A stretch of 41,087 nucleotides of DNA from a virus. The notes beneath the pieces were generated by a model. The model saw only the letters and a list, made by a program, of their open reading frames with translations. It was not told the DNA's origin and did no database searches. Positions within the stretch are counted from its first letter, which is position 1. Each line of letters starts with the position of its first letter. Where the stretch lies: the IMG/VR virus record IMGVR_UViG_3300044621_001647, positions 1-41,087 of that record. The stretch is one strand, 5' to 3'. Below, in pieces: positions 12,829-20,094 of this stretch. The translations under genes and the position numbers were made by a program.

Positions 12829-12857
12829 ACAATAGGCTAGCCAACGTTAGCCGTCAA
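12829..12857 (-). promoter_or_regulatory. leftward sigma-70-type promoter with CTAGC operator spacer
   Basis: The -35 is TTGACG (12852-12857), the spacer is exactly 17 bp (12835-12851) and the -10 is TATTGT (12829-12834). The spacer (GCTAACGTTGGCTAGCC, read leftward) is nearly identical to that of the promoter at 20066-20094. It carries an inverted GGCTA...TAGCC half-site pair, suggesting that one regulator controls both promoters. Confidence 0.7.
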
Positions 12858-12939
12858 GGGTGACTAGCGATTGAGTGCCGGGATTCCGATGGAGCCGCAT
12901 GCTCCTGCCCTAATTCCCCTTGCGGGTGTTGTATTCGGG

Positions 12940-12972
12940 CCATCCCGGCTTGATAAGAGTGCCACGGGATGG
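12940..12972. other. hairpin in the exonuclease-to-accessory intergenic region
   Basis: An inverted repeat CCATCCCG ... CGGGATGG with a 17-nt loop, extended by a GGC/GCC pairing past one bulged base. It lies between the exonuclease stop (13007) and the promoter at 12829. It lacks a T-run on the minus strand, so it is a weak candidate for termination, RNA end stabilisation or protein binding. Nothing else is evident in 12794-13006 besides this and the promoter. Confidence 0.5.
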
Positions 12973-13006
12973 GCCTGTCGTGGACTAGCGAGGGCTGATT
13001 AGCGGC

Positions 13007-13768
13007 TTAGAAGGGGCGGAAGCGCGCTGCGTATTCCTCGCAGACATCGAACCAGGCTTGGAGGCACTCGTCAGCGGTATGGGTTTGGATGACGAGGCTG
13101 CCTGGGCGTGACCAGAGCGTGAGGCAGCGGGAGATGAGGAGCTTGTAGTGGTCGCCGATCATTTCGACGCCGGCACCGAGTTGTGGGCGGGTGTCGTAGA
13201 GGGTGGAGCGCTCGGAACTTTGGGTTTTGAGATCGGCGATGCCGTAGGTGTTATCGGTAAAGCGGATGACGAGATCTGCAGTGCCAGCGACGTTGCGGCG
13301 CAGGCTGTAGGCCATGACTTCAGCGCCGATCACGCTGATGCGATTCCAGAGTTCGTCAGTGAGTAGGGGTTCGATCCAGGCGGTGTAGTCACCATGGGGC
13401 GCTGGAGAGAGTTTGGGCGGTGGGTTGGGGTTGAAGCGCTGGTGTGCCATCACCTCCAGGGCTTTGTGGATGGTGTTGCCCCGTGGTTCCCAGATGTGCC
13501 GGCTGGCCATGATCGCTGCCATTTGGGCCTCCGTCTTGGTGACCGCTGAGATCAGGCTGGTGACGCTGACCGGGAACTGGTGGCCATTGGAGAGGCGGTA
13601 GGTCCAGGTTTCTTGGTCCCTCGTTAGCCCTAGTGGCTGCAGCCACGTCGAAGTCGCGTGGGTTGATGGGTTGGACGGCAACGCCTGTGTTGGGGGATCG
13701 GAGCGGGTTGGCATAGGGCTTGGGTGGTTCGTAGGTAGGGGAGAAGTATGCGGACCGACGGGCTTCAA
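13007..13768 (-). CDS. PD-(D/E)XK (RecB/Cas4-like) exonuclease
   Basis: The conserved domain starts near TWLQPLGLTRDQETWTYRLS (residue 41, about 13648). The nuclease core is visible: Glu in VIGAEVMAYSL (residue 150), Asp in AGTADLVIRF (165) and the D-x-K strand IADLKTQSS (Asp179, Lys181). Phage enzymes of this type resect DNA ends and pair with an annealing protein, here the DUF1071-like product at 20138-20836. The first 40 residues from the only starts available (TTG 13768, ATG 13714) are Pro/Ser/Thr-rich and lie in the +1 frame of the gene at 13389-13886. Start codon unresolved; a frameshifted fusion with that gene is possible. Confidence 0.75.
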   Translation of the reverse strand: MKPVGPHTSPLPTNHPSPMPTRSDPPTQALPSNPSTHATSTWLQPLGLTRDQETWTYRLSNGHQFPVSVTSLISAVTKTEAQMAAIMASRHIWEPRGNTIHKALEVMAHQRFNPNPPPKLSPAPHGDYTAWIEPLLTDELWNRISVIGAEVMAYSLRRNVAGTADLVIRFTDNTYGIADLKTQSSERSTLYDTRPQLGAGVEMIGDHYKLLISRCLTLWSRPGSLVIQTHTADECLQAWFDVCEEYAARFRPF

Positions 13769-17869: not shown

Positions 17870-17954
17870 GCGGCTTCTCGGCTGTGGTATCAGGCCAAGC
17901 AGCTCTGGCGCGACTAGGCCTGTAGCCACAGAATAGCCTGGAGCGAATTGAACA

Positions 17955-19376
17955 ATGACAACGGCGATTTACGCCCGCGTCAGCACGGAAAGCGACGACC
18001 AAGCCCACGCCCTAGAGCAACAGCTCAGCCGCCTGCGTGAGCACGCCGCCCAGCTCGGTGAGCCGGTGGTTGAGTTTGTTGATGTGGCCTCTGGCACCCG
18101 TGACGACCGGCCTGAGCTAAAGCGGTTGCTGGAGTGCTGCGAGCAAGGGCTGCTGACCACGGTGCTCTGCACGCGCATGGACCGCATGAGCCGCTCCACG
18201 GTGCATGGCGGCAAACTGCTGCGTCTGTTTAACCAAGAGAGCTGGCCGAACCTGATCTGCCTGGATCAGTCGATTGATCTGTCGACAGCCATGGGGCGCT
18301 TCTACGCCAATTTGCTCATGGGCATGGCGCAGATGGAATCAGAGCTGATCGGCGAGCGGGTGCATCACGGGCAGCTGTATGCGCGGAAGCAACTGAAGCC
18401 GCAGGCTGGTAAACCGCCGTTTGGCTATCGCTACACAGAGGGGAAGCTCAACTACGAACTGGACCCCGAGACGGCGCCGATTGGCCGGCAGATCGTGACT
18501 CGCTTTTTACAGAGCGCGAGCCTGCGGGATGCTTTTGACCATCAGTACAAGGAATGCGGCCAAGCGTTCAGAAGCTTGGAAGGGCTGCGGCGCTGGCTGC
18601 TGAATCCAGCGATTGCTGGCAGCCGCGTGTATGGAACCTTTCGCTGGAAGCTGGACGCTGATGGCAATAAAAGCCGGCTGCTGAACAAGCCAGGGCAGGT
18701 GGAAGAGATCCACCCGCACGCGCATCCAGCATTGATCAGCCACGAGGAGCAGGTGGAGATCCAGCAGGTGATGCAGTCGTTACGGGTGCGCTCCCTGGCA
18801 CCGATTCGCACGCGACGCAGCCGTGTGCTGACAGGGCTGGTGTACTGCGGGCATTGCGGTGGCCTGATGCACTACCACCAACCGCGCAAGCCAGGTCCGA
18901 CCTATCTGCGCTGTGGCCATGAGGTTTGTCCGAACCGTCCGCACAAGGTGATCCAAGAGAAGGCCGTGGTGGAGGCTGTGCTTAGGCGTCTGTGGGAGAA
19001 GCGGGAGGTGCTGGCCTACGGCAGCGTGGTGGATGAACTGCGGCTGAAGCAACAGCTCAGCCCGGAGATCAAACAGCTGCAGGGTCAGATCAGTGACCTG
19101 CGCTTGCTGGACGACGCGGACCTGGCGGAGGTAATTGGGCGCAAGGAGGAGCGCCTGAGCACGCTGCTGCAGGAGTGCGTCAGTGATGGCGGCAGCCGGT
19201 TCACGTTGGCGGATGCGTTGAACGCGCTGGATCAGCCAACGGTGTGGACAGAGATGACTAAGACGCCAGAGCAAACGCGGCGGCTGGTATCGCAGTGGGT
19301 AGAGCGCGTGGTGGTGAGCGATGGAGCAGTCACAGAGGTGCGACTTAGGGCCGGGGAGAGGGCTGCCCATCCCTAG
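17955..19376 (+). CDS. large serine recombinase (phage integrase)
   Basis: A 473-aa protein. The catalytic resolvase domain begins at the N-terminus, with the nucleophile Ser in YARVSTES (residue 10) and the arginine-containing TRMDRMSRS (about 74-82). Then come a recombinase domain (AGKPPFGYRY near 155; an RSLEGLRRWLLNPAIAGSRV segment near 210), a zinc-ribbon with Cys pairs (VYCGHCGGLMHY ... LRCGHEVCPN, about 296-327) and a C-terminal coiled coil. It would integrate and excise the genome at attP/attB. The architecture resembles XisF-type cyanobacterial recombinases; that relation is inferred. It is the first rightward gene; attP was not identified. Confidence 0.92.
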   Translation: MTTAIYARVSTESDDQAHALEQQLSRLREHAAQLGEPVVEFVDVASGTRDDRPELKRLLECCEQGLLTTVLCTRMDRMSRSTVHGGKLLRLFNQESWPNLICLDQSIDLSTAMGRFYANLLMGMAQMESELIGERVHHGQLYARKQLKPQAGKPPFGYRYTEGKLNYELDPETAPIGRQIVTRFLQSASLRDAFDHQYKECGQAFRSLEGLRRWLLNPAIAGSRVYGTFRWKLDADGNKSRLLNKPGQVEEIHPHAHPALISHEEQVEIQQVMQSLRVRSLAPIRTRRSRVLTGLVYCGHCGGLMHYHQPRKPGPTYLRCGHEVCPNRPHKVIQEKAVVEAVLRRLWEKREVLAYGSVVDELRLKQQLSPEIKQLQGQISDLRLLDDADLAEVIGRKEERLSTLLQECVSDGGSRFTLADALNALDQPTVWTEMTKTPEQTRRLVSQWVERVVVSDGAVTEVRLRAGERAAHP

Positions 19377-19407
19377 GGTTAGGCTATTCGCTAGCGAAGG
19401 CTCTCTT

Positions 19408-20076
19408 TTGGATCACGACCGCTACAGCCATCCGCCGCTAGCTGCCCGGCAGCGCTTTGGTCGCACACTCACGGCCTGGTGCAATCGCAACGGCTGGATC
19501 CACAGCACGCTGCATGAGTGGGGTGAGCAGGCGGGATTTCCTGCGGTGCGGGATTCCAGCTTTAACAAGCTGCAAAACGCCAAGACCGAACAGCCGCAGC
19601 CGCTGACCTTCATCCAGTTGGCGCTGGCCAATGCGCGGGTGGCCGAGGGCGACTACAGCGGCGTGACAGACCGCCGCCTGAAGGATCGCCTCAAGGAGTC
19701 ACAGCCGATCACCGATGCCAATGGTGTGCCATGGAGGGCGACGGATTTTTTTTCACACTTCATCGGCGAGCTAGAGGCGCCGGAGTGGCTGCAGCAACCA
19801 GAGCCGTTGACTCAGGATGCAGCGAAAGCATTAAGCGCTGAGCACCAAGCAAGGTTTGAGGCGCTTGCCAAAGCCAAAGGGCTCACGCCAGCGGTGGCCT
19901 GGAAGCAGTTAGAGCAGCAGTGCCAAAGCCTGAGCAACAGTCAGCGGGATCTACTGCGCAATGTGCTGAGCGGCTGGCATCAGTGGACGCCGAGCGAATG
20001 GGAGTCGTTTTGCCTGAACGGCTCCGACCCAGTAGACGAGGCGCTAGCGGCGTGGGGAGAAGCCATTGACGACTAG
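19408..20076 (+). CDS. putative HTH transcriptional regulator downstream of integrase
   Basis: A 222-aa protein if started at TTG 19408 (GAAGG about 8 nt upstream); the ATG at 19321 would add 29 residues overlapping the integrase and reading like a shadow. Residues about 10-65 (RFGRTLTAWCNRNGWIHSTL, then WGEQAGFP, then FIQLALANARV) fit a Cro/cI-like helix-turn-helix. The remainder is helical, with repeated FEALAKAKGLTPAVAWKQLE-type segments. Beside a serine integrase it is the best candidate lysogeny repressor here; this is inference. A promoter for the next gene begins inside its last codons. Confidence 0.6.
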   Translation: MDHDRYSHPPLAARQRFGRTLTAWCNRNGWIHSTLHEWGEQAGFPAVRDSSFNKLQNAKTEQPQPLTFIQLALANARVAEGDYSGVTDRRLKDRLKESQPITDANGVPWRATDFFSHFIGELEAPEWLQQPEPLTQDAAKALSAEHQARFEALAKAKGLTPAVAWKQLEQQCQSLSNSQRDLLRNVLSGWHQWTPSEWESFCLNGSDPVDEALAAWGEAIDD

Positions 20077-20094
20077 CGTTGGCTAGCCTAGTGT
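20066..20094 (+). promoter_or_regulatory. rightward promoter with CTAGC operator spacer
   Basis: The -35 is TTGACG (20066-20071), the spacer is 17 bp, ACTAGCGTTGGCTAGCC (20072-20088), and the -10 is TAGTGT (20089-20094). The spacer differs from that of the leftward promoter at 12829 at only two positions and contains CTAGC-GTTG-GCTAG, a perfect inverted repeat. It drives the annealing-protein operon. Confidence 0.7.

Follow-up and report, generated by a model that had tools for sequence, protein, structure and literature searches.

What reads the sequence between the -35 and -10 boxes of four promoters that face both ways along a viral genome? The genome is IMG/VR record IMGVR_UViG_3300044621_001647, a complete entry of 41,087 bp that was analysed at its full length (the window), and the four promoters, each with a 17-bp spacer, had been listed in an initial annotation and are all present as written there. 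That annotation held that one repressor or activator binds between the two boxes in both directions, synchronising the operons concerned, and it named a ribbon-helix-helix (RHH) protein and a helix-turn-helix (HTH) protein as candidate readers. The first part of the proposal is supported by conservation of the element and by its switch to another sequence in related phages, with repression favoured over activation, and 'silencing together' would describe the outcome better than 'synchronising'. The evidence favours the HTH protein, here called g222, and speaks against the RHH protein, which is missing from several lineages that keep the operator and whose DNA-reading strand hardly changes with it. 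We consider it likely that g222 is the lysogeny repressor of a group of temperate Cyanobium and Synechococcus phages, and that it keeps RNA polymerase off at least four promoters by way of 14-bp operators in their spacers.

The unit common to the promoters (P_L, 15696, 17127 and P_R; table 1) is a 14-bp dyad of 6-2-6 form, with half-sites that are CTAGCG or close to it and a variable 2-bp centre. It is separated from the -35 hexamer by 1 bp at 12829 (P_L), by none at 15696, by 6 bp at 17127 and by 1 bp at 20066 (P_R). The earlier claim of near-identical spacers holds for P_L and P_R, the only two promoters to have the entire 29-bp sequence in common, and not for the class, whose shared unit is the dyad in differing register. 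A class consisting of P_L and P_R only, defined by a full 29-bp matrix, was dropped because the 17127 and 15696 boxes are conserved in a different register. Both strands were scanned for TTGNNN-(16-18)-TANNNT with CTAGSS-NN-SSCTAG in the spacer, allowing up to two mismatches, and exactly the four promoters were returned, against 0.15 expected in order-3 Markov sequences. CTAG pairs 10 bp apart occur four times in the window, compared with 0.35 expected, and none of 300 simulated sequences reached four. Nor is the motif equally frequent within genes, as the initial annotation had allowed it might be: there is one further, intragenic CTAG-N6-CTAG (CTAGCCAGCGCTAG, 21335-21348, within the gene at 21272-21520), and no -35 or -10 box surrounds it. 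A simple sigma-70 scan recovers only P_L of the four promoters, so consensus promoter scoring alone is uninformative here. GCTAGC is over-represented in the window (29 against 14.3 expected) and P_L and P_R hardly differ over 29 bp, as a composition effect or the duplication of one promoter would predict, but chance of this kind is refuted by the outcome of the scan, by the retention of boxes at orthologous places and by the concerted switch to GTAC described below; we regard it as scarcely credible.

Relatives (designated by L numbers) were gathered by protein homology rather than by motif, as a guard against motif bias, giving 69 loci for Sak and 30 for orf83; many of the contigs are fragments. 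A box promoter is present in 38 of the 51 unique sak upstream regions and in 35 of the 36 unique orf83 upstream regions, and spacers in the relatives are 16-18 bp long. The exceptions in the sak set are mostly the most diverged homologues; the regions upstream of sak in L082-L087, L090, L092, L093 and L101 (41-55% identity) and in L088, L089 and L091 are of other kinds, without the box, and L088 and L089 give neither an RHH nor a g222 match. Across the sak set, the first CTAG of the dyad, a position that was not required for anchoring, holds 1.92 bits of information, compared with 0.44 in the gap that follows TTGAC and 0.70 at the centre of the dyad. The 17127 box is kept before g16449 in eight relatives (L140, L142, L144, L145, L146, L148, L149 and L150), and the 15696 box before g14976 in L003, L005 and L007. 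An unbiased scan also found an extra promoter in L145 (14318-14346, TTGAGC-CGCTAGCGAACGCTAGT-TATACT), with a perfect dyad in a 17-bp spacer, just past the portal gene; to judge from this site, structural genes may belong to the regulon in some of the phages.

Two relatives, L138 and L139, are syntenic with the window and diverged, their g222 proteins being 35-36% identical to that of the window. At their P_R and P_L the -35 and -10 boxes (TTGAC and TAnnnT) are kept, and the spacer dyad is GTACGT-NN-ACGTAC. The change extends to g14976, which is 91% identical between L138 and the window, yet is preceded in L138 by TTGACG-GTACGTCTACGTACCAGT-TACCAT, with a GTAC box; in both L138 and L006, GTACGT-CT-ACGTAC stands before g14976 in place of the CTAG dyad. 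L139 has a further GTAC box upstream of its RHH gene. The two classes of box are mutually exclusive, the CTAG scan returning nothing in L138 and L139 and the GTAC scan nothing in the window and 11 CTAG-class relatives. Within genomes, the half-sites of P_L and P_R match one another (permutation p < 5e-5, with sites picked by eye); in an automated comparison the match was 17.9 in the CTAG class and 23 in the GTAC class, against 14.7 +/- 2.1 across classes. A binomial p-value for the dyad is inflated by the picking of sites by eye and is given no weight. The swap of the spacer with the -35 and -10 boxes kept calls for a dedicated phage regulator that co-evolves with its site, and such a regulator, rather than sigma factor or polymerase, would therefore explain why the spacer is conserved. 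It is very unlikely that the spacer belongs to the intrinsic make-up of the promoter (as an extended -10 or a discriminator) and is read by a phage or host sigma factor without a regulator. A sigma-70-family factor is indeed encoded in the P_R operon, and the CC-TA adjoining the -10 box is strongly conserved, but L138 and L139 have a wholly changed spacer while TTGAC and TAnnnT persist, and the box is a dyad whose register relative to the -35 and -10 boxes differs among the four promoters.

The candidate for such a regulator is g222. In its AlphaFold model, residues 11-120 (predicted local distance difference test, pLDDT, about 90) form an XRE/lambda-repressor-like domain with predicted helices at 11-28, 34-42, 49-56 and 65-80; helices 34-42 and 49-56 make up the HTH, the latter (RDSSFNKL) being the proposed recognition helix. 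The C-terminal region is modelled as helices of unknown kind. Structural neighbours are nearly all XRE/lambda-type DNA-binding domains (including P22 c2, SinR, Stl and DdrO, Z 5-7); there is no sequence match in the PDB, and an S24 autoprotease domain was not found (no Pfam family at E up to 0.1). The protein is present wherever a dyad-bearing locus is covered, adjoining P_R. Its predicted recognition segment, PAVRDSSFN[KR]LQN, does not vary among most CTAG-class phages (L065 has a variant), and that of the GTAC class is wholly different (PQISNNT[MV]SFIW). Prophages in Cyanobium and Synechococcus genomes (L192-L200) encode homologues of g222 whose matched part is 43-57% identical and whose helix is similar (ADSTFNRLQRGK). 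NTARSG dyads lie beside the gene, such as CTAACG-TC-CGTTAG in L193 (CTAACGTCCGTTAG) and ATAGCG-AA-CGCTAG in L197; there are three sites in L197 and four in L196. On this basis we lean towards a broader proposition, that g222 represents an undescribed repressor family controlling lysogeny in widespread freshwater picocyanobacterial phages, and that these phages fall into heteroimmunity classes, between which all operators of the regulon have changed in concert, from CTAG to GTAC, even before a gene that is 91% identical.

One of these prophages, L197, is Synechococcus sp. SynAce01 chromosome 66807-87388, where exonuclease, g222, sak and sigma-like genes are found. The published prophage phiSynAce1 spans 8.2 kb, at 65,524-73,790 (PMC6337551). 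Because the phage genes of L197 run well past those 8.2 kb, phiSynAce1 is probably larger than annotated.

From the observed anatomy of the boxes, their conservation, the concerted change of operators and their co-occurrence with g222, we infer binding by g222, its dimerisation, repression and lysogeny in the following scheme. The four promoters would be lytic-side promoters, each with a 14-bp palindromic operator in its 17-bp spacer. A g222 dimer would occupy the dyad with one recognition helix per half-site and, lying between the -35 and -10 boxes, would physically exclude RNA polymerase. In a lysogen this would jointly silence P_R (annealing, nucleotide and sigma factor genes), the 17127 promoter (the replication operon, whose g16449 has a weak match to a replication-initiation O-like PHROG, E 0.028), the 15696 promoter (the g14976 module) and P_L (leftward, towards terminase); if g222 were lost, all four would be turned on. 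This target set, and a gene placed between the serine integrase and P_R, are as expected of a lysogeny repressor, and CTAG half-boxes just 5' of the g222 start codon are a possible autoregulatory site. The location of the site between the boxes of a normal 17-bp spacer points to repression rather than activation. MerR-type regulators also bind between -35 and -10, at promoters with long spacers (about 19 bp) that need distortion; here, in contrast, the spacers are of 17 bp and the modelled domain is XRE-like.

Several findings weigh against g222 as the reader. Its structural-alignment (VIA-align) Z of 5-7 is modest, it has no Pfam match (E up to 0.1) and no PHROG DNA-binding match, and Foldseek returns nothing at E < 0.001. 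The g14976 box is kept in L007, on whose 18.7-kb record neither g222 nor RHH was found. The GTAC class consists of two contigs only, and the P_L/P_R coupling of the host-genome class (class C) in the automated test, 15.4, is not above the background of 14.7. Finally, CTAG and GTAC each read the same on both strands, as expected if one RHH dimer bound each half, and L005 and L100, two relatives in which the RHH gene is missing at its locus, are fragments, so that the gene may lie elsewhere.

These last points concern the RHH protein, which was the first candidate considered as the reader, CTAG being a palindromic tetramer, and lost that place because it is missing where the dyad is kept (L005, L100 and L192-L200). 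It would act as a CopG/Arc-like repressor, with two dimers on CTAG or GTAC tetramers one helical turn apart, and g222 would do something else. The protein does match Pfam RHH_5, its gene accompanies the box in most phages of the CTAG class (class A) and both of the GTAC class (class B), and CTAG or GTAC boxes lie upstream of it. Even so, we find this arrangement unlikely: L005 and L100 both have box promoters, the RHH profile gives no match in the prophage regions L192-L200, which keep dyads, and the residues of the RHH beta-strand are near-identical between the CTAG and GTAC classes (R-I-T-I-T and R-M-T-I-T). Non-palindromic half-sites also exist (TTAGGG in L196 and L065), and because such half-sites are not self-complementary, one HTH per half-site fits better than one RHH dimer per tetramer. 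We judge the RHH protein to belong to the regulon and not to be its main reader, and the half-boxes upstream of its gene (table 1) to be its probable regulated promoter. A two-regulator switch resembling CI and Cro, in which g222 and RHH read overlapping sites, with one serving maintenance and the other lytic timing, deserves a little more credence, though we still doubt it. Both genes are usually there, each preceded by boxes of one and the same class, and additional CTAG half-sites lie before the RHH gene at spacings of 17-18 bp and 27-28 bp, unlike those of the promoters; but RHH is dispensable in several lineages, and no separate RHH motif was isolated.

With g222 as the repressor, the system appears to work like known phage repressor-operator systems, and the repressor family appears to be undescribed. 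Features of temperate XRE/lambda-type repressors found here are an XRE domain (moderate, with no sequence-family match), dyads over promoters, joint change of helix and operator, and a linked integrase. As in the lambdoid CI and C2 repressors of 434 and P22, an XRE/lambda-repressor HTH dimer (proposed for g222) is paired with a dyad of roughly 14 bp overlapping early promoters, and the recognition helix differs along with the operators between heteroimmune relatives (the switch described here being seen in two lineages). The 434 operator has 4-bp half-sites 10 bp apart. Unlike the lambdoid phages, with their tripartite O_L and O_R, the window has a single dyad at each of no fewer than four distinct promoters; a divergent cro gene was not seen, no S24 domain was found in g222, and the host is picocyanobacterial. 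The Arc, Mnt and CopG repressors find a likeness in the CopG-like RHH protein encoded in the region and in the CTAG boxes upstream of its gene, but here RHH is dispensable in lineages that keep the operator and its DNA-reading strand is nearly the same across operator classes. In mycobacteriophages of cluster A (L5, Bxb1 and Trixie), one phage repressor likewise serves many sites in the genome, and site consensus and repressor co-vary between immunity groups. Their stoperators are asymmetric, 13-14 bp long, bound by monomers and mostly outside promoters, with 20-30 per genome (PMC6550527), whereas the sites here are dyads, about four in number, all within promoter spacers. No description of this repressor or of its operators was found in searchable papers, which is no proof of novelty.

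The window encodes terminase (Terminase_6N/6C), lysozyme, dCTP deaminase, a sigma-70-family factor, a Sak-type annealing protein, the RHH protein and a large serine recombinase. The recombinase gene lies immediately upstream of g222 in the window and in most relatives; the phage is probably temperate. The sigma factor (22804-23790, in the P_R operon) has regions 1.2, 2, 3 and 4, and homologues of 41-62% identity in many relatives. Homologues of g222 on genome contigs come from Cyanobium, Synechococcus and an Aphanothece metagenome-assembled genome, and the relatives of Sak from cultured phages are those of Synechococcus and Prochlorococcus phages; the window is therefore probably from a phage of freshwater picocyanobacteria (Cyanobium/Synechococcus), siphophage-like in character. 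Neither 15 kb of the window, used in a nucleotide search of the phage collection, nor g222, used in tblastn against the same collection, gave a match. The maintenance of lysogeny and the exit from it are little described for picocyanobacterial phages in searchable papers, and the locus offers a candidate repressor, its operators, target promoters and natural heteroimmune variants. Cultured Cyanobium and Synechococcus with related prophages exist (e.g. SynAce01 and ATX 6A2). The coordinated change of operators provides usable data on how repressors and operators co-evolve, and the motif helps in recognising this group of phages in metagenomes.

Table 1. Promoters, dyads, genes and leader elements of the regulon in the window, with positions in nucleotides.
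Feature	Position	Strand	Sequence or match	Context
P_L	12857..12829	-	TTGACG-GCTAACGTTGGCTAGCC-TATTGT, 17-bp spacer	before orf83 and leftward genes towards terminase and portal
P_L operator dyad	12837-12850		CTAACG-TT-GGCTAG	
15696 promoter	15724..15696	-	TTGTCC-CTAGGACTCCCTAGTGC-TAGTTT, 17-bp spacer	before g14976
15696 dyad	15705-15718		CTAGGA-CT-CCCTAG	
17127 promoter	17155..17127	-	TTGCCG-ACGTGGCTAGCTGCCAC-TAGCTT, 17-bp spacer	before g16449
17127 dyad	17130-17143		CTAGCT-GC-CACTAG	
P_R	20066..20094	+	TTGACG-ACTAGCGTTGGCTAGCC-TAGTGT, 17-bp spacer	before sak/dCTP deaminase/sigma operon
P_R operator dyad	20073-20086		CTAGCG-TT-GGCTAG	first CTAG contains the stop codon of the g222 gene
CTAG half-boxes, three, conserved	17473..17520	-	first abuts TATTGT	upstream of RHH gene
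CTAG half-boxes	19373..19394	+		just 5' of g222 start codon
g222, proposed lysogeny repressor	19408..20076	+	222 aa	between serine integrase gene and P_R
RHH protein	17246..17452	-	68 aa; Pfam RHH_5, E 1.1e-10	
Large serine recombinase, probable integrase	17955..19376	+	Pfam Resolvase 1.3e-32, Zn_ribbon_recom, Recombinase	directly 5' of g222
sak, single-strand annealing protein	20138..20836	+	SSAP_Sak 5e-07; phrog_21418 1e-66	first gene of P_R operon
orf83, function unknown	12542..12793	-		first gene behind P_L
P_R leader hairpin	20101..20120	+	GTGCCGC-AGCGAC-GCGGCAT	just downstream of P_R
P_L leader hairpin	12808..12819	-	GGGG-GCGA-CCCC	downstream of P_L, kept in relatives

The leaders of both main transcripts start with a conserved hairpin. 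That of P_R has 96% of cells paired and three pairs with compensatory change, with no slid register near. In L100 (2838-4251) and L098 (4900-6440), a GIY-YIG-like gene and a different sak allele (55-57% identity) take the place of the usual sak just after P_R and its leader hairpin, so that modules have been exchanged at the edge of the promoter. Between the 17127 promoter and g16449, at 17066-17119, lie 5.4 copies of a tandem 10-bp repeat (GATCTGAACC). In relatives this position is occupied by other iterated units, among them GGCGCCAAAC (L005) and CTACCGCAGCA (L141), and the repeats are possibly replication iterons of lineage-specific sequence. A further stretch of about 540 bp (13900-14440), without a convincing gene, consists of GC-rich, degenerate repeats with units like CCTGCGTTGCC.

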